A DNA stretch of 30,628 bases from Geosiphon pyriformis (Eukaryota > Glomeromycota > Glomeromycetes > Archaeosporales > Geosiphonaceae), in contig JAAOMT010000647.1 of assembly GCA_016748015.1 (NCBI GenBank), positions 342,040 through 372,667 of the forward strand, in the 5' to 3' direction. Every line of letters begins with the position of its first letter. Positions within the stretch are counted from its first letter, which is position 1. The position numbers and the translations under genes were made by a program. Positions 8,225 to 25,839 of the stretch are shown here, one piece after another. Below the pieces are notes generated by a model. The model had not been told where the DNA came from. It ran no database searches and saw nothing but the letters and a program-made list of their open reading frames with translations.

Positions 8225-9035
8225 TATATTGTTATAATTAAAACTTTTAATTTTTAATTTTTAATTATTTATATTAATTATTAATATTATTAACCATTCT
8301 ATTTTAAAGAGTAATTATTAATGTAATTATTAACTTAATTATTATTATTTTTTAAAAATATATAAATAAAACTTTTTAAAACAATAAAAATTTATTTATA
8401 CTTATTAAAAACAAAAATTAATATAATAATATTAATTTTTTAATTTTTTTTCATATATATTTTTTTCTGATTTGTATAATTATTAGTTTTTATAAAATAT
8501 ATTAAATAAATATTTACTAAAAAGTATAATTAAAACTTAATATTAAATTTTAAAAACACTAATATGAAATATAAAATTATATTAATATATTATTTTTTAT
8601 TAAAATACAAATTATCTTTCTATATTTAGATTCTTTTATTAGTTTTTAAAAAAATAATAATTAAAATATTTATGAAATTAATTTTACATATTAAATTTTT
8701 ATTAATTTAATTTACTTATTAAAGTTAAATTATTTTATTATTATATTTATTATTATATAATACTATTTTTTTTGTATTTATTAGCTTGTTATTTTTAATT
8801 ATAACAATATATAAATATGTATATTTTTAAAAATTACTTTTAAACCAAAAAAATCTTTAAAAATACTTAAAACATATTACAAAAATTATTTTTAAACAAA
8901 TAAATAAATAAATGTTTTTGTGAAAATTTAGATATTATTATCATTAGAACTAATATTTTAATAAAAATATATTTAATAAAAGACTTTTAATTATTAATAT
9001 AAATTTTTAAGTATTAAAATTTAAATTAAGTAATT
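8225..9035 (+). repeat. Decayed copy of the AT-rich repeat
   Basis: The segment aligns co-linearly with 25015-25730. The clearest part is 8465-8735 against 25263-25530, for example GTATAATTATTAGTTTTT against GCATAATTATTTGTTTTT, and the shared CTTATTAAAGTTAAATTA near the end. In this copy most mismatches are T or A where the 25 kb copy has C or G. No coding potential is left in it. Confidence 0.75.
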
Positions 9036-9250: not shown

Positions 9251-12200
9251 AAAATAGTAATATTTTGGAAGATGTAGGCTCTTAATATATAGCTTCAGCA
9301 TAATATGGTTTTGATTGGTTCGAATGGCTGGTCACGTGTAGAAAGCTTATGAGCCATACTATTTTAGAGTATTTTATTTACTGTATAATAGTAGGTCGCA
9401 CTCTTTAAAAAAAAATCAAATTCTTTTAAAATATTTTTATTCATTTAATTAATATTTTTTTAAATAATAAATTTATATAGAAACAAAATAAGATTTGTTT
9501 TATACCTTTATAAATTATTTAAAAAATTATAAATTAAAATTAACCAATAATAAAAATTCTAAATATTAAAATAGTCAAATCAAAAATTTCACTAAAAAAC
9601 TCTTGACTTGTACACTTTTATCAAAAATTAGCACAATAATTTATTAAATTTGAATTAAAATTTTTATTTAACTAAATATATATATGAAAGCTTTACACAA
9701 GAAAATTGTAGAACAACAGCTGGAATTTGATAAATTTGATAAAATCAAAAAGCACATTTAAGATTGTAAGTATGAACTTTTCTTTTGTTAATGTTATTGT
9801 TATTTATTAACATAATTAGTGTGAAAAACTTAAGCTGAGAAAATTTAAACAGAACTAAAAGTTTGGCTATATAAACGCTTTTAAAAATAGGCTATATTGT
9901 TTTGCTATCATTGGATCAAGATGTGTAAGTTCCAGTTTCTAGTGTATAACTTCTTAAACTTAAAATTATCAAAGATAGCTTATTATAAGAAAATTATAGC
10001 AAAGTAAGTGTATAGGCTTTCTAAATTATAGCGTTTTATAGTATCTTAACTGCGTCTCACTTTTGAATTATTATTATTGGTTTTTAATCAGTTTTTTAAA
10101 AAAAAATTATTTTTTTAAATTTTCCTAAAAGATAAAGAATATCTTTAAAAGTAAACTATTAATGAATGAAGATTTTTAATAATAACTTATTATTTTATTT
10201 TCGAAATTAACATTATTCACGAGTATTAATAATTTTTAAGAAATCTATAATAAAATTTTGAATTTTCTAAAAGCGAAAAGAGATTAGAAATAATAAATCT
10301 TAAGAAATAGCTGGTAAATAAGTATTTTTTAGATATAATTGAAAAACCTTTATAAAAGGTTTTAATGTTTGATTACTAAATTTAAGTGTTGTATATTTTT
10401 AACACCATATTTCTTCAATTCATTGTGAAATCCTTTTAAAGGTTTATAAAACTAGATATTGAAATTAATTAATTTATATAACTGGCTTACCCGTTAGAAA
10501 GGATTAAATTTTATAAAATATTTTCATATATCTTTAATTAATCTAGTTTCGGCGGATACCTAGTCAAAATAGAGAGCCCGCTCTTTAAAAAAAGCATTCT
10601 ATTTAAAAAGAATCTCTCTTTCAAAGTTCCTAGTAATTAATTTTGCCGAGCATTAATATATTTATTCTACTCTCTATTATTACATATAGATTAATTATAC
10701 TTCATTATATTGGTTCATGGTGATTCGCACTTATAAAAGTTACTATAACATACGCAATTAATTTAGATCTTGGATTGAGTTAACCCACAAACTCAGAATA
10801 AAACTAGGATAAAATAATATTTAGAACGATTGTATTGCTGAGCTCATTGAAAAGTGTCATTATCCCAATCTATTGAATAGCCTTAAAGTTAGATGTATAA
10901 TAAAAAGCCTAAAATTGAGAGCTACAGTTTAATTGATTAGAAAAACACAGAAAAATACCAAAAAACCGACGAAATATTGAATATATCCAGGTAGAGTATA
11001 TCTAAGTTGCATCTCAAGTTTCTAGAAAAGTGAATCAATTTTTTGAATTAGTTAATATGTTAATTTGATTTTACTTTTCAATAAATTTAGTGTATTTAAA
11101 AGTTAAAAAAAATTTCATGGTGTTATTTAATGCTTATTTGCTATCTATCATAGTTATTTTAAATTTATATAATAAAAAATAAATTAGTTGAAAATTTAAT
11201 TTTGATACAACTTCTTTTTAAAAATGCTTTTAATCTTCCTTTTTATTAATATTTAATAAAGAAGATTTAGACCTAAGTTTATTGATAAAAATTAAAATTA
11301 AATCCTTATTGTGAAGATGTACAAAGTCTATCAATTTTTAATGTTATTTTCTAAAAAAAACTTAACCAATTTTTGTATTAAGTTATTAACTTTTAAATTG
11401 TCTTGCTTAATCTTTATATTTTTGAACAAAAGGCAAGCATTATATTTTTTTTAAATATAATAATATTCATAATAAGTTTATTAATTTTTAAATAATTTAT
11501 ATTGTAAAAAATATTTGACTTGATTACTTTTCCAAATCAGTTATTTTGATTTCGTTAAATTCAAAACTTAATAATACAATAAACAGAATAATTGAAGTAT
11601 TTTCCAAAAATAGTAAAAGAAAAGTGCTTTTGCTTTTGTTTATTTTAAATAACTGGTTTTTTCCTTAATTTCTACTTTTTTAGTTTAATTTGGACATTTA
11701 AAAGTTGTGGGAATTTTATAAAAAATGGTTTGTTTGATTTTTTAATTTATGAATTTTTTTAAATAAATGTTTCTAAAAAGATTCTTGAATATTTAGATTA
11801 TTTATTAAACTGTTAATGTTGTTAATTATTGGAAGTTTTATAAATAAGCATTTTTTTTTGTAATTTTCATTTTTTCGTCATTTATTCTTTTTATTTCTCA
11901 TAAGTACTGTTATTCTAGGTTAACTTGTAATAATTTAAAAAATTTACAGATTGTTTATGTATTTCATAAAATAATTCATTTTGTCTTATACAAAATCTTA
12001 TTTTATTTATTTATTTGAAATTGAACTCTGCCAATTAGACTTGAAATTCTAAAAAACCTATCACTAAAATATCTAAAAAATACTTTCACATAGAATATAA
12101 ATTTAGCTAAAAATAATTTTTATGACGGTTATTTTATATTTTTCTGAAGGTTAAAATTAATAAATAAAACAATCTTTTTTAGGTTTTTACCAAAAGATAT

Positions 12201-12423
12201 TAATCATTGAAAACCTTGCATATTTTATGTTTGCAAAAAGTACAGCTTTAGAACTATAATTTTGAAATATTAAACTGCGTTATCAAAAAAAATGTTTATA
12301 ATTATTAATTTATCTTATATATCCATCACCCGAAAAAAATACAGTTGTAATCCTAAATATAGATGATGAAGTTTTCCAGAATTCATTTCCTATGCGATTT
12401 TTGAAAAAATAATTTTTAAAATA
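9251..12423. other. AT-rich region with islands of higher GC, no gene recognised
   Basis: Two islands (about 9250-9410 and 10540-11040) are richer in G and C than their surroundings but contain stops in all frames. The first has GGTTCGAAT at 9317-9325, resembling a Pol III B box, about 30 bp after TAGCTTCAG; no cloverleaf can be folded. On the minus strand near 10855-10790 short protein-like words interrupted by stops suggest an old transposon or gene relic. From 11050 to 12420 I see only AT-rich sequence. Confidence 0.35.
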
Positions 12424-12545
12424 TCACTCTTCGCGAATAGATTCTATTATGCTTTCTCGATTCCACATATAAGCTGTTGTAATTTTAAACTATAGATAAC
12501 AAATAATTTACTTTTTAAAAAAATATCAAAAAGATTAGAATTTCT

Positions 12546-13902
12546 TCATACTATACCTATATCTAATACTGTTCTCCCATGCCTATCCCTAATATCTTTT
12601 CGAGCCTTATATTGGTTAACTAATAATGCAAATATCTTCTCGTGTCCCTCTTTAGCTGCAAAATGTAAAGGTGTCCACAAGTCCCATTCATCTCTAGCAT
12701 CGACATCAACATCAACATCAACATCAATCTCAATCTCAATCTCTAAATTTCTATCCGCTTTCTTTTTTCTCTTCTCTTTGCTTATTAATAAAAATTTGAT
12801 AACCTCTGCATTTCCAGTCATGGCAGAATGATGTATCGCCTGTCTTCCCAATTTATTCTTGCATTTAGATCAATTTTATAATCTTCTAAAAGCGTTTTAA
12901 TGAGCCGTAAATTTCCAGATATCACAGCATTCTGAAAAAGGTTAATTCCAGAATTATCAGATGTCATTAAAAGGATGTCCAAATGTGCAGTGTTATAAAA
13001 ATGAAGATTAGAATTTGAGAAATACCCTAGGAAAAATAGAACAATATCGAAATTTTTATAGAGTGCAGCAGTATGTATTGGTAATCGGCCTGAATTACTT
13101 GATGTAAATACAGTTTCCGACGAGAGTAATGTAAAGTATTTCACAAGAGCTAAATGACCTTGAAATTATAAGTAATTATAACATAAAAATTAAATAATTA
13201 ACATTTGATAAAGGCAAAAATTAAAAATATTGATAAATGGAACCTTCTTTTAAAGCCAGATGAAGACTATTCCAGCTATCTTTATTTTTAGATTAACTCT
13301 GAACTAATTCTTTCGCGATGTCAATTCTCCCCTTCATCGCTAGAAATAAATATATCGAAATCAGAAATAAACCTAATAGAAAACAGAGAATCTCAAATTT
13401 ATCAAATATAATTATCCTTACCTGAAATCATTAAAGGTGTCCATCCGCCATGTTTTATACAATTTACATCTATATTCGAATGATGACATAAAAACTTAAC
13501 ACATTCTAAATCTTCAATTACTTCATGAAGTGGTTGCCTTCCTGAGTTTAAAAAGATGTGCTCGTTTACTTAATCTAATAGTGGTAACTTTCAAAAATGT
13601 GGTTATTTGAGTTTTTGCATACCATGAATATTAACTCCTGTAACATCTGCACTAAATTCGTTCACAAACAATTTCAAAATATCAATTGCATAGTAAAGTG
13701 CTGCAAAATGTACCAATGTATCACCATATTGGTCTTTTTTAACAATTATTTGTTTAGCTGCTTTTTTAAGGCAGTCTATGCTCATATTTGAAAGGATAGA
13801 TGTTAAAATTTGATGAATTTTTGTGGGATTATTAGTTTGAATAAACTATAATAAAGAGGTTTTGCCATGTATTTCTAGATGTGAAATTTGATTTTCATTC
13901 AT
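12546..13902 (-). pseudogene. Broken ankyrin-repeat protein gene
   Basis: Four exons (13902-13623, 13541-13422, 13339-13244, 13158-12546) with GT-AG introns of 81-85 bp encode about seven or eight ankyrin repeats, such as GDTLVHFAALYYAIDILKLF, GRQPLHEVIEDLECVKFL, GGWTPLMISAMKGRIDIAKE, WNSLHLALKEGHLALVKYF and WTPLHFAAKEGHEKIFALL. Ankyrin arrays bind proteins; no other domain is seen. The frame is broken three times: TAG at 13846-13848 soon after the likely start ATG (13902-13900), TAA at 13293-13295 between two repeats, and a one-base shift in an A-rich stretch near 12850-12862. A dipeptide run of EI and DV (around 12700-12750) from a hexanucleotide repeat interrupts one ankyrin unit. The splice sites remain good, so inactivation looks recent. 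The proposed start lies a few bases from the end of the inverted repeat arm. Confidence 0.75.
12697..12745 (-). repeat. Coding hexanucleotide repeat (Glu-Ile / Asp-Val)
   Basis: A tandem 6 bp repeat, CATCAA then CTCAAT on the plus strand, encodes alternating Asp-Val and Glu-Ile on the minus strand within the ankyrin pseudogene. It inserts a charged/hydrophobic alternating loop between two ankyrin units. Confidence 0.8.
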
Positions 13903-14153
13903 TGTAAAGTAGAACTTTCAGATTATAATGCAAAATATGGTATGAGTAAAAGAGGCAAAAGGCCTTAAATCGGAGACTGTATAAATTGGTGATAAGTTAG
14001 AGATGATCATGATAATCATGATAATTATGCAATATGGGAGGTTTGTTTACTAAATTCGCGAGATTAAGACCAACCTCACAGTTATTGAAATTAAGGATAA
14101 TATCTGGCAATTGAAATAACGCGAAAAATAGTATAATTAATTTGATAATAGGG

Positions 14154-14231
14154 GCAAACGTTTACTCGGATCAATCCCAAATCTCAAATCTCAGAGAACT
14201 TTGCATTAAAGAATTAAGCAACACATTATAA
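14154..14231 (+). pseudogene. Copied C-terminal tail of a Sel1-type gene (left arm)
   Basis: The frame ANVYSDQSQISNLRELCIKE continues to SNTL and a TAA stop. It is nearly identical to the C-terminus of the kinase/Sel1 pseudogene at 22531-24208, on the opposite strand. The similarity to that gene stops just before the Ala codon, so only the tail was captured. It cannot be a gene by itself. Confidence 0.85.
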
Positions 14232-14499
14232 AAATTGTGAAACGAGTAATTGAGGATGAGCTATAAAACTTAAATTTAATTTTTTTTGAATTAAAATGAA
14301 TGATCTAAAAAGTCATTTTAAATAGACACAAAATATAAACACACTCAAAGCTATGTTATTTTCTAAAATATATTAGAAAGATTATTCATTTTTTGACATT
14401 CCTTCTTTCTGTTTTAAGTTTTAATTATAAGCAAGATCTTATTGGTCCTAACCAGTAATGCTCAAAGTTTCAGGTTATAGGGAAGGTTTTTGACATAAA

Positions 14500-14735
14500 A
14501 ATTAGTTAAGGCAAATTGTCTTAGGAAGGAAAACGCGGCACTCAAATATTCGATTAAACCCTCACACACAGAGTTCAAACCCTCTGTGGGGCAAATCAAA
14601 TATAGATTATCTGTCCGGGAAGACATAAAACTATCCGTCGATGGAAGATGACGTTAATTAACCCATCTGATATGATGTAAATCTACCCATCTGATATGAT
14701 GTAAATCTTCCATCCGAAATGATGTAAAACTATGT
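14500..14735 (+). promoter_or_regulatory. Possible Pol III-type A box / B box pair with hairpin
   Basis: TAGTTAAGGC (about 14503) resembles an A box (consensus TRGYNNARNNGG, last two G missing). GTTCAAACC (14573-14581) fits the B box consensus GWTCRANNC exactly. A T run of eight at about 14727 could end a Pol III transcript. CACAGAG pairs with CTCTGTG around the B-box loop. The spacing of about 70 bp is long for a plain tRNA and I cannot fold a cloverleaf, so a tRNA-derived SINE head is only a hypothesis. Confidence 0.25.
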
Positions 14736-14870
14736 TTTTTTTCATCTAGTATGACGTAAACCCATCCGGAACGATGTATAACTATCGGCCACATTAAATA
14801 AACCCATCCGAAATGATGTAATCTATCCGTCAAAGGAAAATGACGTTATTCACCATTCGCAATGATGATA
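14625..14870 (+). repeat. Tandem array of ~24 bp units, left arm
   Basis: About seven degenerate units follow CCATCYGRWATGATGTAAA with spacers. Two neighbours are identical (CCCATCTGATATGATGTAAA). Each unit carries TGATGT or TGACGT followed by A or TA. The same array appears in the right arm (about 19845-20060) and, shortened, at 21946-22140. Confidence 0.85.
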
Positions 14871-17545
14871 ATAATTCTGACCCCTAAACATAATATAAAA
14901 GTTTTTTTTTATTCGCAAATAAAAATCTCATTTTATAATATGTTTCGTAAATAAACTAGCTAAAGAACAAAAAAAGATAAAGAAGGTTTTTAACCCAAAT
15001 CCACGGCTTTGCCAAAATTATTTAGCCAAATTTGAAAAATATACTTTTTTACTCTTTTTGAATTCAAAATTTTATTAACTTTAAATTTAACAAGTTATTT
15101 TAAATGAATCGAATTTCTTGTAACTTAACTTATTACAAAGTTAAATTGTTTTAATATTGTATTATAAAAGCCAAACTTTAATAATTATTTCAAATTTCAG
15201 TGTTTTTTGATGTCATTTATTTGTTTTTTCTTTATATTTATTGATATTATTTTCAGGTTTACAGATTAATATTTTTTTAAATCTCTTAAATCTTAGCAAT
15301 ATATTTTTTAACAATAAAATTTACTGATTTTCTGATATAAAGAATTTCATCTATCATTTTAATTGAAATTTAGAAGATGCTATTGTATGTTAATAATACT
15401 AGATTGAACCAATTATTTTGTTGATAATTCATAAAACATTATAAGTACTATACTAAAATATAATTAATATTTTTATCTAACTATTGGTTTAAGAGTAAAA
15501 TATTAAAGATTACAAAATTTTAATATCAAAAAACTCAAAAAACAATTTTAAAATCAAAACACAAATTAAAAATCAATCTTTAAAACCATTTTAAAATAAG
15601 TAAAAATTGTAATAAACTAAAAAGCAAATTATAAAAAAATTTGAACCAAAAGCAAATATTACATAATTTTATGTATATTTTTATAAACTTTTTTTACTGT
15701 GGCTACTAAAATCTTTTAATAATTAACTTAAAAATTTTACCAACTTCAAAGTATTAGGTTATTGTAATTTTATTCAAGACTTGCAATCATTTGAGCTCTT
15801 TTAATTCATATATTTTATAATAGATAAAATAGAATTCAAAATATTATTAATAATTTTCTTGGCAAAATTATTAATACTTGTTATTTAATTGCTTTTAAAA
15901 GCTTTAAATCAACACAAAAGGAAAAAAAAGCAGCAATTTCCAATTTTTTAGCTTTGAATAACATAGTTTTTTGTTAATCATAAATTTCATTACTTTTTTT
16001 TCAAATAATGTAAAAAAGTATTTATTTTGTTCTGGAATAATAAGAAATTTTGAATTAAAATCTCCTAAAAAAATTGACCATTAGACTTGCTATTAATTAA
16101 GTGTTTGTATTATTATAAAATACTAAAGATTTTTGTAATTATAAAAACAAAAGTAAAAATTTGTTTTAAAATTTAAATACATTGTTAACTTAGGATGATC
16201 ATATAAAAAAATTTTACTTTTTTGGTTAAAACAGTCAATAGTGTTACTATCTTTGAATAATTATTAATAAAAATCGGCAAATCCAAAGAATTTTTGAACA
16301 TTTTTTACAAAACAAAGCATTTTCTAATCCAAAATTGTTTAATTCCTCTTAAAATCTATTAAAAAAAACGATATACTTAAGTAATTCAACTTAAAACTGG
16401 TTAAACTTGTATTTCTTACGCTTAATATATAATTTACACTGTTATAATTACTTTAATATTTGACATATATATATTTTATGCTTTTTTTGGTTTTTGGAAT
16501 AAATAAAAATTAATTTAAAAATATTATTTATTAAATATTAAAACACAGCAGAAGCATTTGTTAATTTAAAAAGCACAATTAAATACTTAAAATAGTTATA
16601 ATGCATTTAAAAAGTCATTTTTTATTCATTTTTTATACTAAGTTGTAAATATTTCAAAGATCAATCTTTGTAAATACACAAACAAAATATAACTGATCCA
16701 ATAAATTCAAAATTAAAAGTAATAAATATGGATTTTGGCTTTAAAAAATTATAGATTAGTCTAAATAAAGAAGTTTTACTTTTTACCAATTTAATAAAAC
16801 AATTATACAAATAATGTTTTAGTAATAGATTAGCTTATTTCTTAATTCAATATATTAATGTATTTATAATAACTAATTAGTAACTTTAAATTATTAGCAA
16901 GTTCTGAATTATGCTTTTTTACTAATAATAAAGTTTTTTCAGAATTTTTTGATTAACAGCTATTGATATTTTAAATACATTGAAAAATTTAATAATATGT
17001 GTTTTTTAATTAATCAATAAATTATGCAGCTGCAACCAAGATAACTTTAAAATAATAGTATAATTTAGACTTTTAATAACATTGAAAATAATTTTTTGAT
17101 GTTTAATAATAACAAAAATTAACTACTGAATATTTTAATTAATATTTTTTATATAATAAAACATTTATTAATAACTTCTAATAATATAGGATGTTGTTTT
17201 TTAATGAACAAAATATTATGTTAAACTGCAAGATTCTAATCAATAAAACAAGAAATAACATTTGAGTTTCTGTAATTATACTAAGACTAAACTTGATAGT
17301 CTAAATTAACAGTATAGTTAAACTAAAACCATAACTAGAAATATCAAACTGTTAATAGATGTTGGATTTTAAAACTAAAACAGAAACTTGCTCTGAAGCA
17401 ATAATAGATTTAATTTACTATACTAACAGAACTTTAAATACTAGTTACAGAAGTTAGAATATACAAATATATAGTCCTTACTGCATTTAAACCTAATTAT
17501 TTTTTGGCAAAGCTGTTAAAATTTTATTAACTAGTTTCATAAAAC

Positions 17546-17660
17546 ATTAATGAACAATATGACCAGATTTTTTACAATATAAACAGAAATTATTACTCCA
17601 CCAACGAATTTTTTTCGCTTCTGTAAGTGGTTTGTAACAAGTTGTATTAATTTGTATTGA
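17546..17660 (-). pseudogene. Relic of a Ty3-type retrotransposon Gag with zinc knuckle
   Basis: The minus strand reads YKPLTEAKKIRWWSNNF followed by CLYCKKSGHIVH and a TAA. In Ty3/gypsy Gag proteins a PLTEAEK-like motif and a basic stretch come just before a C-x2-C-x4-H-x4-C knuckle; here the two Cys and the His are kept and the last Cys is lost to the stop region. Upstream sequence to about 18110 contains more protein-like fragments with many stops, consistent with capsid sequence. No protease, reverse transcriptase, integrase or LTR was found. It is a dead fragment. Confidence 0.6.
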
Positions 17661-19447
17661 ATTATCTCAAAATAAAACTGACAGCCAACTATCTACAGAG
17701 GATTAAACAGATACAGAATTACCAGCATAATTTCGAAAACTTCATTCCTTATGATGTTCAAGGAGTCAATTATTACAACAAATTGTATTTCCAATAGCTT
17801 TACTTAATATACTGGCATTCAACAAGGTTAGCAACAAGTCTTGAACATTATTACACAACTTAAAACAGAATTAATTAATTAATTAATTAATGTTTTCTCT
17901 TTTCAATTAACATTACATACAAGCAGCTAAAATTTTGCAGCATATATCGCAACAGACTGATTCTTTTGTTAAAAGTGACATAACTGGTTGGCCAAAACTC
18001 AGACCTTGTCTGTATTCACAAAGCTGATCCACAAAGGTTCTGAAACAGTCTGGAATTTCTCTGATCAACTATTTCCTCGTAACAATTAACCTCTTGGTAT
18101 TTATATAAATTTTCTTCTTATGTTAATTATTAATAAATCATTAATTCAACTGTTAATTTTTAATCATATATATGAAATAGTATTAATTATTGTGCATTTG
18201 TATATTTATAATGAATTATTTGTTTATTTTTAAATTATTGTTAAAAATAATTGTAATTTAACAAAGCCAAATTTTTTTAAATGATTTTATATTATTATAT
18301 TTATATTAAATCTTTTACTTAAATGTATTGTTCAAATGTTTTTACATAAATTATGAAAGCTCGTTAAAACTTATAAGACAATTTTATTAATTAAAATTGT
18401 AAATATTAAATAAGTGATCAATGTTTTTAGTTTTAAAAAATTGGTAATTATGTTCCACTCGAGTATAATTCATAAATATTTAAGTAAAAATATTAGATTT
18501 TTGCAAATTTAATGGTTATTTATTCATTGTATATTTTATATTAATATAGAGTATATTTATTTTTTGGACCCAATCAACTAATTTTTAAAAAGAAAATTGA
18601 ATCAAGTAGAATTATTTTAATTTTAATTATATTATATGCAACTTGGTTATAAATATTTAATTATTTGCTATTAATATCAAAGCAATATTAAAAAAAAACT
18701 TGCATTAACTATAAATTTATTGATGATATTAATTTTTATCTTAATAATAAAAGCTATGCTAAAAATTGTCAATATTATTGTAAAGAGACTCTATACAAAT
18801 AATTATATTATTTAAATATAAATATAAAAAATAAATTAAATCATTCAAATTTTAAATATTTAGAAACAATTTAGATTTACATGAATTTTAGTTTGTTATA
18901 TCACTACTTAAGATGGCTTTTTTTAAAGCAATAACTTTCAATAATTTCTTTGAAAATAGGTCAGTTTATAATAGCTGTACAAATATAATTAAGAGAATTT
19001 CACTAGCTTATTTCTAATAAAATTTTTTTTGGTATTTTTGAGTGAATTGCAGATTTTCAATGAATCAAATAGAAACAAATACATAGCAGCTAAAAATTAT
19101 TTTATAACTATTAATTAAATGGATAAATTTATAATTGTTAATTATAATAAACTATTTCTATTATTTCTTAAAAAGAAAAGCATTTTCAATCAAAAAATTC
19201 ATTGTCAAACGATTACTAGTTTTCATTCTAAAAAATAGTCACTTATAAAAGAAATTTTACTAATAAAAATAAAAGATTTAGAGCTTTTATTCTGAAAGCT
19301 ATCTCAGATATTACCTAGTTTTTTATTAAAAGAATTTAATTATATGCTAATAAGATATAAAATAATGAGAGAGAGCACTTCAGTTTTTTAATATTGAAAA
19401 TATCCATTACGAAAAGACGAAGGAATTTTCTCTTATATTAACATCCT

Positions 19448-19564
19448 ATGAAACTTCTCTTGGAGGAATTTGCTGCTTCCGTATTTGCAGGTCTACTCAC
19501 CAGAATGGATTGTAATGAGTTTATTGGTAGCTTTTTGGATAACTCATATTTTATTTTGGAGTAG
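19448..19564 (+). other. 38-codon protein-like open frame
   Basis: The frame starts MKLLLEEFAASVFAGLLTRM and ends at TAG, with an upstream in-frame stop. The composition is balanced, unlike the AT translations around it, and the local GC is higher. It may be an exon fragment of a lost gene. I do not recognise the family, and no splice sites are convincing. Confidence 0.25.
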
Positions 19565-19844
19565 CATAAATCATGATAACGAAAAACTGAAAACAGATTG
19601 CCAAGGAAAATATTAGACGTATCGTTCGAAAAAAGCTATATTTCTCAAATTTGGCTAAATAATTTTGGCAAAGCCGTGGATTTGGGTTAAAAACCTTCTT
19701 TATCTTTTTTTGTTCTTTAGCTAGTTTATTTACGAAACATATTATAAAATGAGATTTTTATTTGCGAATAAAAAAAAACTTTTATATTATGTTTAGGGGT
19801 CAGAATTATTATCATCATTGCGAATGGTGAATAACGTCATTTTC

Positions 19845-20060
19845 CTTTGACGGATAGATTACATCATTTCGGATGGGTTTATTTAATGTGGCCGATAGTT
19901 ATACATCGTTCCGGATGGGTTTACGTCATACTAGATGAAAAAAAACATAGTTTTACATCATTTCGGATGGAAGATTTACATCATATCAGATGGGTAGATT
20001 TACATCATATCAGATGGGTTAATTAACGTCATCTTCCATCGACGGATAGTTTTATGTCTT
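19845..20060 (-). repeat. Tandem array of ~24 bp units, right arm
   Basis: This is the mirror image of the array at 14625-14870, with the same unit order and two adjacent identical units. Words such as TTTACATCATATCAGATGGG repeat. Conservation between arms is very high here compared with the AT-rich core they flank. Confidence 0.85.
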
Positions 20061-20091
20061 CCCGGACAGATAATCTATATTTGATTTGCCC

Positions 20092-20115
20092 CACACAGGG
20101 TTTGAACCCTGTGTG
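20092..20115. other. Perfect hairpin in the right arm
   Basis: CACACAGGG, loop TTTGAA, then CCCTGTGTG form nine Watson-Crick pairs. The left arm keeps a stem with different bases and a different register (CACAGAG with CTCTGTG), and the 22 kb copy keeps it with one mismatch. On the minus strand the core reads GTTCAAACC. Confidence 0.8.
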
Positions 20116-20658
20116 TGAGGGTTTAATCGAATATTTGAGTGCCGCGCTTTCCTTCCTAAGACAATTTGCCTTAACTAATTTTTATGTCAAAAACCTTCCC
20201 TATAACCTGAAATTTTGAGTATTACTGGTTAGGACCAATAAGATCTTGCTTCTAATTAAAACTTAAAACAGAAAGAAGGAATGTCAAAAAATGAATAATC
20301 TTTCTAATATATTTTAGAAAATAACATAGCTTTGAGCGTGTTTATATTTTGTGTTTATCTAAAATGACTTTTTAGACATAAATTTTATACAATGAAAATA
20401 TATTAAATACTCAATTCGTAGGAAATATTTAAAAGTTCAGAAAATTTTAGAACATTAATTTGTGAAAGTATTTATTTTCGTTTCCATCATTCACTTTAAG
20501 ATTTTTAATTCAGAAAAACAATTTAAAATTAAATTTCATAGCTCATCTTCAATTACCCGTTTAAAAGAATTGACAAAGTTATTTCACAATTTTTTTAAAC
20601 TCTAATTTCTAAGGCAACTGATATTATCAATGCTGAATAAATTCTCTTTATAATTTGT

Positions 20659-20725
20659 TGCTTAATTCTTTAATGCAAAGTTCTTTGAGATTTGGGATTT
20701 GGGATTGATCCGAGTAAACGTTTGC
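20659..20725 (-). pseudogene. Copied C-terminal tail of a Sel1-type gene (right arm)
   Basis: The minus strand reads NVYSDQSQIPNLKELCIKEL, then the copy is interrupted where the other two copies continue to the stop codon. It matches the tail of the Sel1 pseudogene at 22531-22610 in the same orientation. Confidence 0.75.
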
Positions 20726-21020
20726 CCTATTATCAAAATAATTATACTATTTTTCACGTTATTTCAATTGCCAGATATTAATCTCGCGAATTTAGTAAAC
20801 AAACCTCCTACATTGCATGATTATCATGATCATCTCTAACTTATCACCAATTTATGATTTACCAACTACACTATACAGTCTCCAATTTAAGGCCTCCTGC
20901 CTCTTTTACTCATACCATATTTTGCATTATAATCTGAAAGTTCTACCTTTTGAAGAGATAGACAATTTATCTTTCGCATTTCATATATAAGTCGTGACCG
21001 CCTGTTTTGACAACTTATTG

Positions 21021-21089
21021 CATCTGAAGACGATCCAGCCAGAAATTTTACACCATTCATGGAAGCTGATTACAAATTCATTAGAAAGG
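21021..21089 (+). other. Possible orphan exon
   Basis: Just outside the right arm a frame reads LIASEDDPARNFTPFMEADY and continues KFIRK up to a GTAATG donor-like site at 21090. The composition is balanced and protein-like. An upstream TGA in the same frame and no clear downstream exon mean it could be the remains of a gene cut by the repeat insertion. The family is unknown. Confidence 0.3.
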
Positions 21090-21945
21090 TAATGTTTTTT
21101 AAAAAGAAATAGTTTAGTTACCAGAAAAGTACATCCATTCTAGTAAGTCTACAGCCATTTATTGGGTTAAAAGCTGGGAGAAACCAACCAACCAACCAAT
21201 ATTAAAAGTTCGCAGTTTCTTGGGTGAAAAAAATTGTTCTATTCTGTTTAAAATTCAAATAAAAAAGAATTTTTAATTACCTATGTATCAAGTTATGATG
21301 TGGTGTACTATATGAGCGGGTATCGTCCTCTGCTATATGACATCCGTCCTACTATATTATTACAGTCGTAAGATGAATGTACTCAATCCGTTAGATTAAG
21401 CATGGAAATCTAATGGAAAGAGCACGAAAAATAATAAAAGCTGAGAATGAGCATCAAATTTCTGATCTAAAGTCAATACTGAACCGATCATAAAATATTT
21501 GTTTGGTTTTATAAAAAGTAAAATTCTAATTCATAAACATTTTGAATGTGTACTAAAAATTATTGAATAAAAATCTAATGTTGTATGTTATAATAAACAT
21601 TATTATGATGTTATTTGGCCCTATCAATCCATTACTATAATATGATTTTCATTAAAGAAAATTCATATGTAAATATTTTAAAATAATTAATGTCTTAAGT
21701 TTTTTTTTGACAAACAAAATATTAAATTTGTTTACTTTTTACAACTTTTTAATATTATAATATCCTTATTTAAAAACACATATTCATATATTATTATTAT
21801 TTTATTATTATTAGTTTTTTAAGTCTGTGTTCTTTTTTTTTTAATTTAAGACTTTGGAAGATTGCATTTTATATAACAATAGCTTTGACTAATTTCTTTC
21901 AAAATAATTAAATTTTCTAATAGCTATACAAATATAATTCAAAGA
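21090..21945. other. AT-rich spacer before the third repeat copy
   Basis: No gene is visible. CCAACCAACCAACCAA is a short tandem repeat at about 21185. The end (21877-21944) resembles 18928-18996 within the inter-arm core, sharing CAATA, AATTTCTTT, AATAGCT and ACAAATATAATT in order. Confidence 0.5.
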
Positions 21946-22600
21946 AACGGATAGTCTTACGTCATATTGGACGGGATAGTTTCACATCGTTCCGGATGGG
22001 TTTACGTCATACTGGATGAAAAAAAAACATAGTTTTACATCATTTCGGATGGAAGATTTACATCATATCAGATGGGTAGATTTACATCATATCAGATGGG
22101 TTAATTAACGTCATCTTCCATCGACGGATAGTTTTATGTCTTCCCGGACAGATAATCTATATTTGATTTGCCCCACAGAGGGTTTGAACCCTGTGTGTGA
22201 GGGTTTAATCGAATATTTGAGTGCCGCGTTTTCCTTCCTAAGACAATTTGCCTTAACTAATTTTTATGTCAAAAACCTTCCCTATAACCTGAAACTTTGA
22301 GCATTACTGGTTAGGACCAATAAGATCTTGCTTATAATTAAAACTTAAAACAGAAAGAAGGAATGTCAAAAAATGAATAATCTTTCTAATATATTTTAGA
22401 AAATAACATAGCTTTGAGTGTGTTTATATTTTGTGTCTATTTAAAATGACTTTTTAGATCATTCATTTTAATTCAAAAAAAATTAAATTTAAGTTTTATA
22501 GCTCATCCTCAATTACTCGTTTCACAATTTTTATAATGTGTTGCTTAATTCTTTAATATAAAGTTCTCTGAGATTTGGGATTTGGGATTGATCCGAGTAA
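21946..22600 (-). repeat. Third copy of the Sel1-tail repeat, overlapping the Sel1 pseudogene
   Basis: This copy has the same order as the right arm and orientation: tandem array (21946-22140), hairpin (about 22170-22200), about 330 bp of shared spacer, then the Sel1 gene tail. Here the tail is continuous with the rest of the gene, so this is the likely source or the closest relative of the source. Similarity with the arms stops at about 22600, within the coding sequence. The array is truncated at its far end compared with the arms. Confidence 0.88.
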
Positions 22601-24208
22601 ACGTTTGCTTCTATTTTGGCTGCCTGTATATAGTATTGACTAGCCATGAGAAAACTCGGTACTGTTCCAATTTCCTGTTCATATGCTATCCTGAGAAGAA
22701 CTTGTCCCAATTGATGTCCATGGTTAGTAATCCTTTGATAGTGTATTAGAGGCCATAGTAGTGCCTGACTCCATAGTATAAGCAACAGCTAAAGATACCT
22801 CTGCTAATATATCTTCTTAATTGGCACCTAATGTATAAGATTTAAAAGCTTCTGTTACACTGGCACCAATTTCATACTCATAGAAAAGACCAAAAAGAAA
22901 AGTATATTGAGAAAGATTTTTGATATTGGCTTTCAAAATATTAAAAATATATTCTGGAGCAACATGATTTGCTCTTAAATAATCTGTAATTCTTTGACTC
23001 ATTTGTCAATCAGGGAGGATGGTATTCACAGCCTTGTTTACAATTTTCAAAGTATGATTAATTAACGTCTTCTTTCTTGAATTGTTGATATAAGATTCAG
23101 TAGTGTTTGGAAAGCTATAAATATTAGTTGAATAGTTTGGCGCAGAGTTGTTTGCAAGATAATTATTTGTGGAATGATTTGGCATAAAGGTGTTTGAGAG
23201 ACTGTAGTTATTCATAGAATGAATTGGTGCAGAGTTGTTTGGAAGAAGATAACTATTTGTGGAATAAATTGGTGCAGAGGTGTTTGAGAGGCCATGACTA
23301 GTTGTGGAGTGAATTGGTGCAAAGCTGTTGGAAGAGGGATTGGTTGACAAATTAATTGGTACAAAAGTGTTTGAAGAGTAGGAGTAAATTGGCACAGAGA
23401 TGTTTGGAGGGGGATGATTAGTCATTAAATGAGTTGGTAGCGATGTGTTTAACAATGGATAATTATTAGTTGAATGGTTTAGTGCAAAGGGATGATTAGT
23501 TATTACATCAATTGGCAGATGGTTTGGCAATAAATAACTATTAATTGAATGGTTTGGTGCAGAGGTGTTGGAAGAGGGATAACTAGTCGGGAAATGAATT
23601 GGTACAGAGATGTTTGGAGGGGAATAAGTAATCGTTAAATAAATTGATGCAGAGGGGTTTGAAGAGGGATAATTATTAGTTGAATGGTCTGATGCAGAGT
23701 TATTTGAAAGAAGATTACTAGTTATTGTATGAGTTGATTCAGAGGTGTTTGGGAAAGGATAATTATTTGTGGAATAAATTGGTCTAAAGTTATTGGGAGA
23801 AAGATAACTATTAGTGAGATGAGTTGGTGCAGAGATGTTTGAAGAGGGATAATTTGTTGTGGGATCAATTGGTGCGGAATTATTTGGAGAAGTGTAACTA
23901 GTGATGGGATAAATTGGTTCAGTAATATTAGAACTATTGTTGTTAATGGTGGAATAAATTGGGTCAATATTGCTAAAACTATTACTATTATTGTTGTTGT
24001 TGCTGCTGTTTTTGTTATCATCATCGTTAATATTTAAAGAAAAAAAATTTAAAAAAAATTTAACTCCATTGTTTTATCAGTTGTGCTTGTGGGAGTTTCC
24101 GTCCATTCAATTTTTAAAAGCCTTTGGGATACTTCTTTAATATCTGGATGCTTGGTTGGTTCGCCATTCCAACATTCTGTATAGAGTTTTGCACATTTCT
24201 CTGGTGTT
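22531..24208 (-). pseudogene. Broken protein kinase / Sel1-repeat gene
   Basis: The minus strand begins after an acceptor (TTTTCAG) with the end of a protein kinase domain, TPEKCAKLYTECWNGEPTKH, matching subdomains X-XI, where the usual Arg is replaced. A TAA follows in a T-rich stretch (about 24045). A long open region to 23009 encodes about 20 degenerate 15-residue repeats of the form SAPIYSTNSYLLPNN. Then come a TGA (23006-23008), QMSQRITDYLRANHVAPEYI, Sel1 repeats (FLFGLFYEYEIGA; LGQVLLRIAYEQEIGT), a TAA at about 22817 and a frameshift near 22740-22750; the gene ends ELSNTL and TAA at 22531. Kinase/Sel1 fusions are common in Glomeromycotina and are thought to signal or scaffold. The rest of the kinase domain is not found upstream, only AT-rich sequence. 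The gene is dead or a fragment. Confidence 0.78.
23040..23970 (-). repeat. 45 bp coding minisatellite
   Basis: About 20 tandem units of 45 bp (one is 42 bp) encode 15-residue Asn/Ser/Pro/Thr-rich repeats with the pattern A-P-I-x-S-x-x-x-Y-x-x-x-N-x-S. The frame stays open for about 340 codons although the gene around it is broken. No start codon lies near its beginning, which fits an internal exon. Confidence 0.88.
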
Positions 24209-25839
24209 CTGAAAATTGATGTTTCTTATTTACTGTGAGTTTTAAACAACAGATTATATATCTTTTAAAATTAATTTAAAACAATATTTAATAATTAATC
24301 TGTTTATAATACAAAAATTATATATGTATTACAAAAAATTTAATTAGTTATTAATTATTATAATATTCATAATATTAAACAATAAAACATTAAAACAATT
24401 ATAAATTATTATAGTTCTAAAACAGTCATATTTTTATTTAGCATAAAAGTTCTTTTTTGATTAAAACATATAAAATATTCTTTTTACGTTTTATAAATAT
24501 TAAATAAAAAACTATTTCGATGCTTTATTTATACTAAAAAACAAATAATAATAAAAAATAAAATTGAAATATATTTTGTTATCAATTCACAAAAAACTAT
24601 AATAAAAACACAAAAAATTGGCAGTAAAATAAATAAGTATATGCTTAAATACATAACTGCTAAAATACTTTTTTTTTAATATGCTAAAAAAAGTTTTGTT
24701 TTATTATAAAAATTTGTTATATAAAAAAACAACTCAAATATTATGAAAGACTTGGTAAAATTATAGAAAATATAAAGCTTTTAAAAAAAACAACTTCAAA
24801 AATTCAGATGAAAATTTTAAGCATTAAATATTTAAATATTTAAGAATTTTGATTGTTCTAAAACGAATTAAAACACTTTTATAAAAGTATGGTTTCTTAA
24901 ATCCAAAATAAATATTGTTACAGTTATTATATATTTTATTAAGCAAAATTTTTATTAAATGGTTTTATTTTACTAAAACTTAATTCTTTTAGCAAAAATA
25001 ATGTTATAAGTAAAACTTTTAATTTTCAATTATCCTATTTATCAAGCCAAAGTTATTTTACATATATTAATTATTGATTTAGTTATTGACTTAATTATTA
25101 ACCAAATTATTAACCAAATTATTAATCTTTTTTTTAAAAATATATAAGCAAAATTTTTTAAAGTTGTAAAAATTTAATTCAGACAAAAATTTACATTTAA
25201 AATAATTTATTTAAAACAAAAATTAATATATAATATTAATTCTTTTATTTTCTTTTACTTTTTTTTGATTTGCATAATTATTTGTTTTTGTAAAGTATAT
25301 TGAATAAACATTTACTAAAAAATACAACTAATACTTAATATTAAATTCTAAGAACAGTAATATAAATCATAGAATTACATTAGTGTATATTTTTTTGTTA
25401 ATAGTATAGACTATCTTTTTATCTTCAGATTTTTTTATTATCTTTTAAAAAATAATAACTGAGATATTTATAAAATTAATTTCACACATTAAATTTTTAC
25501 TAATTCAATTCACTTATTAAAGTTAAATTATTTTTTAATTATTTTTATTATTATATAATATTGTTTTCTTTTGCTATCTATTAACATATTATATCTAATA
25601 TTATCTTTAAATTTATGAAAGTCTTTAATAAAACAGTATTTAAGATTAGCACTTTACATAAAAATTATATCTGGTAAAAAACTTTTGGATGTTAATATTA
25701 TTACAAGTATTAAAGTTTAGATTATTTGGCTTCTGTTTGTAAAGCTGTTATTGCTGTTTTTTTAACAAAATTTTAAGTTTTCTATTGTATTTAAGATTTT
25801 TGTTAATTAACTTATTGATTTGATGTCTTATGTTAAAGT
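24209..25839. other. AT-rich region upstream of the Sel1 pseudogene
   Basis: No kinase exon is visible here although the gene would need several. The segment 25015-25755 is the better preserved copy of the AT-rich repeat found in the 5-9 kb desert. The remainder shows no features. Confidence 0.5.
25015..25755 (+). repeat. Better preserved copy of the AT-rich repeat
   Basis: This segment aligns with 8225-9035 and, in its last part, with 6785-6912, all in the same orientation. It keeps more C and G than the other two, for example ATATCTGG versus ATATTTAA. It ends about 85 bp before the hAT-like element. No coding frame was found in it. Confidence 0.72.

Follow-up and report, generated by a model that had tools for sequence, protein, structure and literature searches.

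Duplicated and inverted blocks of an ankyrin 5' flank in Geosiphon pyriformis probably reflect gene-family shuffling

Layout of the locus

The window (the whole stretch of Geosiphon pyriformis DNA that was analysed, 30,628 nucleotides; contig C203, positions 342040-372667) was compared with itself, and the assembly that was searched comprised 124.7 Mb in 406 contigs. The window is AT-rich, with a GC content of 7.5-35% per kb. The self-comparison revealed two inverted arms, mapped at 13906-15050 (arm 1) and 19629-20949 (arm 2), which enclose an AT-rich core of about 4.6 kb. The best-matching parts of the arms (14274-15050 and 20408-19629) were 97.3% identical over 781 columns (1306 bits), and the outer parts (13906-14232 and 20949-20647) were 79% identical in a gapped alignment. 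Because none of 20 dinucleotide-shuffled versions of the window gave an inverted self-match above 55.4 bits, versus 1306 bits for the real one, the inverted geometry described in an earlier note on this DNA stands, with slightly different edges. The third repeat copy described there was found at 21975-22615 (98.4% identical to 14786-14147 of arm 1 in the self-comparison), and the extra sequence that the arms share beyond the supposed gene tail, which the third copy lacks, amounts to about 240 bp (13906-14150).

Pieces named ANK, U, T, R, CL, M1, M2, CR, X, B, Y and SEL in window order were mapped onto the loci (U and T of arm 1, CL, M2, CR and Y without an assigned strand). ANK (11680-13905, minus strand) is an ankyrin-repeat gene or fragment and is followed by U (13906-14150), T (14151-14232) and R, which occupies 14233-15050 in arm 1 (plus strand). 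The inverted copy of R in arm 2 lies at 19629-20408 (minus strand) and is followed by the 238-bp piece X (20409-20646, minus strand) and by T and U of arm 2 (20647-20949, minus strand), placed by the self-comparison and the locus map. The third copy (minus strand) consists of T plus R without X and without U, and is fused to SEL (22616-24240, minus strand), a truncated kinase/Sel1-type gene fragment. X, which arm 1 also lacks, is kept in remote ANK flanks, and it was deleted in arm 1 and the third copy. Another fragment, B (20950-21788, plus strand), is joined to U of arm 2. Since the piece Y (21789-21974) continues CR in a relative on C183, where the order is B-Y-CR-R, part of CR was deleted before the third copy.

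R contains a hairpin (around 14559-14591) and an array of ATGAYGTAAA units (14672-14760), which we take to be CRE/bZIP-like. All 12 ATGAYGTAAA matches in the window lie within the three R copies, versus 0.4 expected, and all but two of the matches in other loci (L012:7013 and L035:158) lie within R. The hairpin gave fold z-scores of -2.2 to -5.1 (three window copies and C107) and was absent from C218:248k, C356 and C77 in the alignment. A tRNA-derived SINE origin, prompted by the B-box-like hairpin GGTTCAAACC, was rejected, as no tRNA was detected by ARAGORN, and Rfam returned one chance-level match (E 0.64) in one search and none in another.

The core consists of CL (15051-16150), its left part; M1 (16151-18064, minus strand); M2 (18065-18908), present in close copies on C345, C344 and C183; and CR (18909-19628), the flank beside R on the arm 2 side. 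A Pfam search of the window core in six frames detected a gag-like stretch on the minus strand of M1 (around 17870-18064; PF03732, E=0.0081), below the Pfam cut-off. Searches in three frames per copy gave E values of 0.031 for the C345 relative and 0.0065 for the C344 relative, and no gag-like match for the C355 relative. A CCHC zinc-knuckle pattern at 17544-17585 is interrupted by a stop in the window copy and uninterrupted in the C344 copy; it was found in none of the scanned C345, C183, C298 and C355 sequences. No polymerase, integrase or transposase was matched in the window core (Pfam, six frames, E up to 0.5), in agreement with the earlier remark, as far as transposases are concerned, that no transposase or recombinase is visible. 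The core is probably decayed retroelement-derived sequence, as its gag-like remnant suggests.

Close copies of the core (about 83-97% identical) were found on C345, C344 and C183. Among the 40 of 97 candidates that were scored, core pieces matched many other contigs at about 64-82%, and nine core matches began at query base 25, that is, at window position 15084, the point in CL from which diverged dispersed copies are matched. Near the equivalent of window 15081-15089, the relatives L002, L004 and L011 carry an insertion of about 140 bp with an apparent 9-bp target duplication, the window site being empty; the insertion is possibly a small MULE-type element. CR was also considered as a coding exon, which was not supported: its conserved 80 bp is open in one window frame and interrupted or shifted in the other aligned loci, and stops were present in four of the six other CR copies listed by the protein search (C345:62137, C183, C354 and C257).

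The ankyrin 5' flank and its joins to other gene pieces

ANK is the native neighbour of arm 1. Pfam recognised Ank_2 in it (2.5e-17, for 12546-12869), and it has paralogs elsewhere. Its candidate start codon was placed at 13900-13902 by the start alignment. Codon 19 is an in-frame stop (around 13846-13848) that is absent from the aligned close paralogs L004, L005 and L008 (C344 twice and C15), so the window copy is probably a pseudogene.

The order ANK-U-(T)-X-R was found in seven of the eight remote ANK loci that were fetched (C218 twice, the end of C270, C356, C77 and C184 twice), at roughly 68-90% identity. T is present in six of these seven, C356 having no T match; the window T itself matched two remote loci directly and weakly (the end of C270, E 2e-4; C77, E 0.01), and the other remote T matches run via the C77 sequence between U and X. 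At remote loci R is also followed by a piece of CR (19468-19549 or 19053-19199), and CR pieces are in order at C77, the end of C270 and C356. At the eighth locus, C121, no more than 54 bp of U is retained, and three further ANK loci (C268, C190 and C311) had no match in the R search. Altogether, the block is present at seven of the remote ANK loci, of which there are at least 11; several of the seven were chosen because of their R match, and at least four loci (C121, C268, C190 and C311) show no R. The ankyrin flanks L029 and L034 are distinct, being 82.6% alike over 2,025 columns.

Judged by this order, the repeat block U-T-X-R-CR is best read as the native 5' flank of an ankyrin-repeat gene family. 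U lies directly before the ANK start, recurs in arm 2 and stands beside remote ANK genes. R can exist apart from ANK, since R-CR occurs without ANK at C107 and C270:205k, with different end points, and U-T-X-R occurs at C160 without ANK by DNA match. Pfam detected no ankyrin near the remote R loci C107, C270:205k and C344:42.6k, the last of which carries a cwf18 splicing-factor gene, and found no match beyond CR at C107, C77 and C270:205k. The array and hairpin form a putative regulatory block upstream of the ankyrin genes.

SEL had no Pfam match to a Sel1 repeat in its window copy. Its intact paralog on C257 gave kinase matches as well as Sel1 (4.9e-21) in two stretches, the best of which lies past the join, and the name Sel1 therefore rests on homology to C257. 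The earlier note took the piece shared by the three repeats to be the last 26 or so codons of a real gene 3' end. The window frame is open there, but the intact C257 paralog continues for 99 residues past the shared motif QYYxQAA (QTA in one copy), including a further Sel1 repeat, and the fused copies on C203, C345 and C183 (twice) end after 28, 3, 22 and 35 residues, respectively, the 3' end of the C354 Sel1-type fragment lying outside this comparison. Because C257 reads on, with Sel1 past the join, and the four fused copies end differently, T is not a gene end. The three fused copies outside the window read the piece differently, the piece lies upstream of ankyrin genes elsewhere, and the frame and stop seen in the window are preserved in six of the 12 T copies that a script detected. 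A gene-tail origin of the repeat is ruled out by the C257 read-through, the divergent fused ends and the ANK-U-(T)-X-R order at remote loci. The idea of a gene-end segment is thus refuted: T belongs to the ankyrin 5' flank, to which a truncated Sel1-type gene was joined. A gene reading in frame into the repeat had looked like the source of the repeat, a tempting misreading that is corrected here.

The intact gene and the U-T sequence share the 6-bp GGGGCA at the SEL-T junction, and this join is accordingly identified, from the aligned sequences, as a microhomology join. It was probably made once and then duplicated, because it is common to the four fused copies. X or part of it is kept in the three other Sel1-fused copies; the third window copy lacks X, like arm 1. 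The B-U junction lies some 3 bp ahead of the candidate ankyrin start codon and is the same in the window, C284 and C183; on C344, B occurs without U there. A Pfam search of the plus strand of B returned no match. The B-region pieces 21118-21193 and 21658-21840 matched many contigs at 72-97%, as could be expected of the termini of a small dispersed element. Within SEL, positions 23006-24073 form a long frame that repeats every 15 residues (units of 45 bp), has a high content of Asn, Ser, Thr and Pro, and has no Pfam match. The region C257:872500-882400 (L021) holds B, Y and CR pieces beside the intact kinase/Sel1 gene and gave no R match; it may resemble a donor cluster.

Copies, junctions and local similarity

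The query 14154-15052 gave at least 30 matches in the assembly, and the hairpin part alone was found in at least 15 places at 93-100% identity on seven contigs. Close R copies numbered, as lower bounds, three each on C203, C345 and C183, two each on C344 and C15, and one each on C284 and C354; at least two remote matches of the hairpin part were 73-75% identical. Contigs C344, C345, C183 and C15 begin or end inside the duplicated unit or within 200 bases of R, and these four contig ends are a sign that the unit broke the assembly. Telomere repeats are present in the assembly, and the matches listed covered no R-carrying contig.

The pieces around R occur in mixed combinations. Inward of R lies CL on C203, C344, C15, C183 and C345, or CR on C203, C345, C183, C354, C344 and C15, with a weak piece of it on C284; outward of R lies ANK, B or SEL. 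ANK is combined with CL on C203, C344 and C15 and with CR on C344, SEL with CL on C183 and with CR on C345 and C183, and B with CR on C203 and, weakly, on C284. The R|CL junction recurs on C344, C183, C15 and C345, and the CR|R junction recurs twice on C345 and also on C183, where it falls at the same base. U was also found near the 5' side of SEL on C354, C345 and C183. The left flank of the C345 copy at 55051 is unlike the ANK, B and SEL flanks.

Inverted R pairs were detected in two of seven further stretches tested, C183:3350-16500 and C345:48051-67053, and none was detected in the two C344 stretches, C284, C354 or C183:28700-36129. C344:1-10800 contained one inverted pair of 175 bp, which lies in the core and not in R. 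On C345, the inverted pair of the window recurs in shortened form with most of the core missing. The C183 pair surrounds SEL; its two sides are 90% identical within R, dropping to 71% within CR.

A tree of 15 R copies placed the three C203 copies in one clade (support 100/99), whereas the copies sharing contigs C183, C345 and C344 formed no supported groups, and seven of 12 inner branches were unresolved. Copies within C203 are thus closer to each other than to copies at other loci, a pattern not seen on C183, C345 and C344. Over 14647-15050 the arms differ at 3 of 404 sites, versus a mean of 6.3% and a minimum of 2.6% for 64 other pairs (38 of 102 being dropped for coverage). Over 14347-14746 arm 1 differs from the third copy at 1 of 400 sites, versus a mean of 3.0% and a minimum of 0.5% for 102 other pairs, and from arm 2 at 6 of 400, within the range of the other pairs (minimum 0.5%). 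Further out, over 14147-14346, the arms differ at 23 of 198 sites. The 3/404 difference of the inner arms fits local gene conversion, and so does the patchwork of similarity together with the shared loss of X, as judged from one genome; recent local duplication followed by exchange could mimic it.

Origin of the repeats

The structure is real and of an ordinary kind: gene-flank blocks have been duplicated and inverted, with chimeric joins between gene pieces and homogenisation on a local scale. The three repeats probably represent gene-family shuffling and not a new mobile element. The whole account that we favour, with fairly high confidence, is segmental duplication of an ankyrin 5' flank and gene pieces, with chimeric microhomology joins, re-duplication and local conversion. 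The flank U-T-X-R-CR would have been copied with neighbouring gene pieces by segmental duplication; microhomology-type breaks would have joined it once to the truncated kinase/Sel1 gene at GGGGCA and once to B, some 3 bp ahead of the ANK start. The fused blocks would then have been duplicated again, leaving in the window an ankyrin-flanked and a B-flanked copy in opposite orientation around the decayed core and a Sel1-flanked copy next door. Recombination among near-identical R copies may have shuffled the outer flanks, and gene conversion may keep the R segments of C203 alike; conversion as the cause, and the number and order of the events, we infer. The homology, the order of the pieces, the junctions and the local clustering of the C203 copies are observed. 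Collinear blocks of genes or gene fragments were found at several places with high identity, and two junctions, SEL-T (GGGGCA) and B-U, show breakpoints of the segmental-duplication type without transposon hallmarks. The duplication with an inverted pair that the earlier note had also considered is supported by the many copies, the recurrent junctions and the inverted R pairs on C203, C183 and C345.

The earlier suggestion that the segment became mobile fared less well. The many dispersed copies expected of a mobile element were found (at least 15, on seven contigs), but fixed ends were not: R ends vary, no fixed ends at unrelated sites were found, the flanks are mostly the same few gene fragments, no target duplication was seen at the tested edges, and none of the MULE matches listed lies near a copy. 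A foldback or long-TIR DNA transposon of about 7 kb, with the arms as TIRs, the core as a decayed body and C345:55051-58592 as an internally deleted copy, is improbable. In such elements a core lies between long inverted repeats that contain a tandem array, and the window resembles them in these features: the arm-core-arm unit is complete here, recurs on C345 with most of the core missing and with one outer flank unlike the usual ones, and is truncated where contigs C345, C344 and C183 end. It differs from them in that no random insertion sites, target duplication or core transposase were found. Most outer flanks belong to the same three gene families, R is found in varying combinations of an outer ANK, SEL or B with an inner CL or CR, and, as U belongs natively to ankyrin genes, the arms do not stop at an insertion edge on their outer side. 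When flanks of 25 bases were compared, the longest common word was 5 bases and was not at both edges for the window arms and the C345 pair, and the C183 pair had no common word of at least 4 bases; a 7-base match near the T edges lies within U, a piece that is inverted-repeat sequence in its own right.

In Rhizophagus irregularis, amplification of kinase/Sel1 genes is associated with MULEs, which are located close to the expanded genes (PMC8647823), and SEL lies between inverted R copies on C183 and C345. A Pack-MULE-type element, in which MULE transposition would have transported kinase/Sel1 and ankyrin fragments enclosed by long inverted repeats (on C183 and C345, CR-R-X-T flanking SEL), is nevertheless very unlikely. 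The 18 MULE matches listed genome-wide, a lower bound, all lie more than 200 kb from any R copy; where one contig carries both, the smallest distance is about 225 kb, on C284. On C183 the inverted homology decays toward CR, and the flanks have no common word of at least 4 bases. A distant MULE source could act in trans. That the inverted arm is an assembly misjoin is very unlikely in our judgement: the assembler evidently struggled, as four contigs begin or end in or beside the unit, but both core junctions are also present on other contigs and the outer flanks of the arms differ, unlike those of a hairpin read artefact.

The favoured segmental duplication resembles known segmental duplications or low-copy repeats in its multi-copy blocks of gene pieces, common junctions, inverted pairs and local homogenisation; unlike typical cases, the shared block is about 1 kb and AT-rich, lies in a fungus-like genome and is homogenised on one contig only. 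The arms are more alike inside than outside, like sex-chromosome-type palindromes with arm-to-arm gene conversion (PMC8981503), but unlike those palindromes they are short, with diverged outer parts, a spacer long relative to the arms and a conversion deduced from similarity. The families amplified beside repeats are of the same kind as in Rhizophagus irregularis (PMC8647823), from which the present case differs in having no MULE match near the copies among the matches listed. The locus offers a worked example of how duplication and microhomology joining can shuffle expanded kinase/Sel1 and ankyrin families with no transposase nearby.

If the upstream block drives the expression of the genes joined to it, such joining would offer a way of bringing unrelated genes under shared regulation. 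A further reading, which we hold to be unlikely, is that the ankyrin 5' flank is a portable promoter block whose array and hairpin have been attached repeatedly to other gene bodies (kinase/Sel1 and B), with conversion in the inverted pairs keeping the block uniform; if it were true, unrelated signalling-type genes would come under one regulatory sequence.

Separate from the arms, the self-comparison also revealed a direct repeat pair in the window (8226-8799 and 24998-25599; 77.5% identical).
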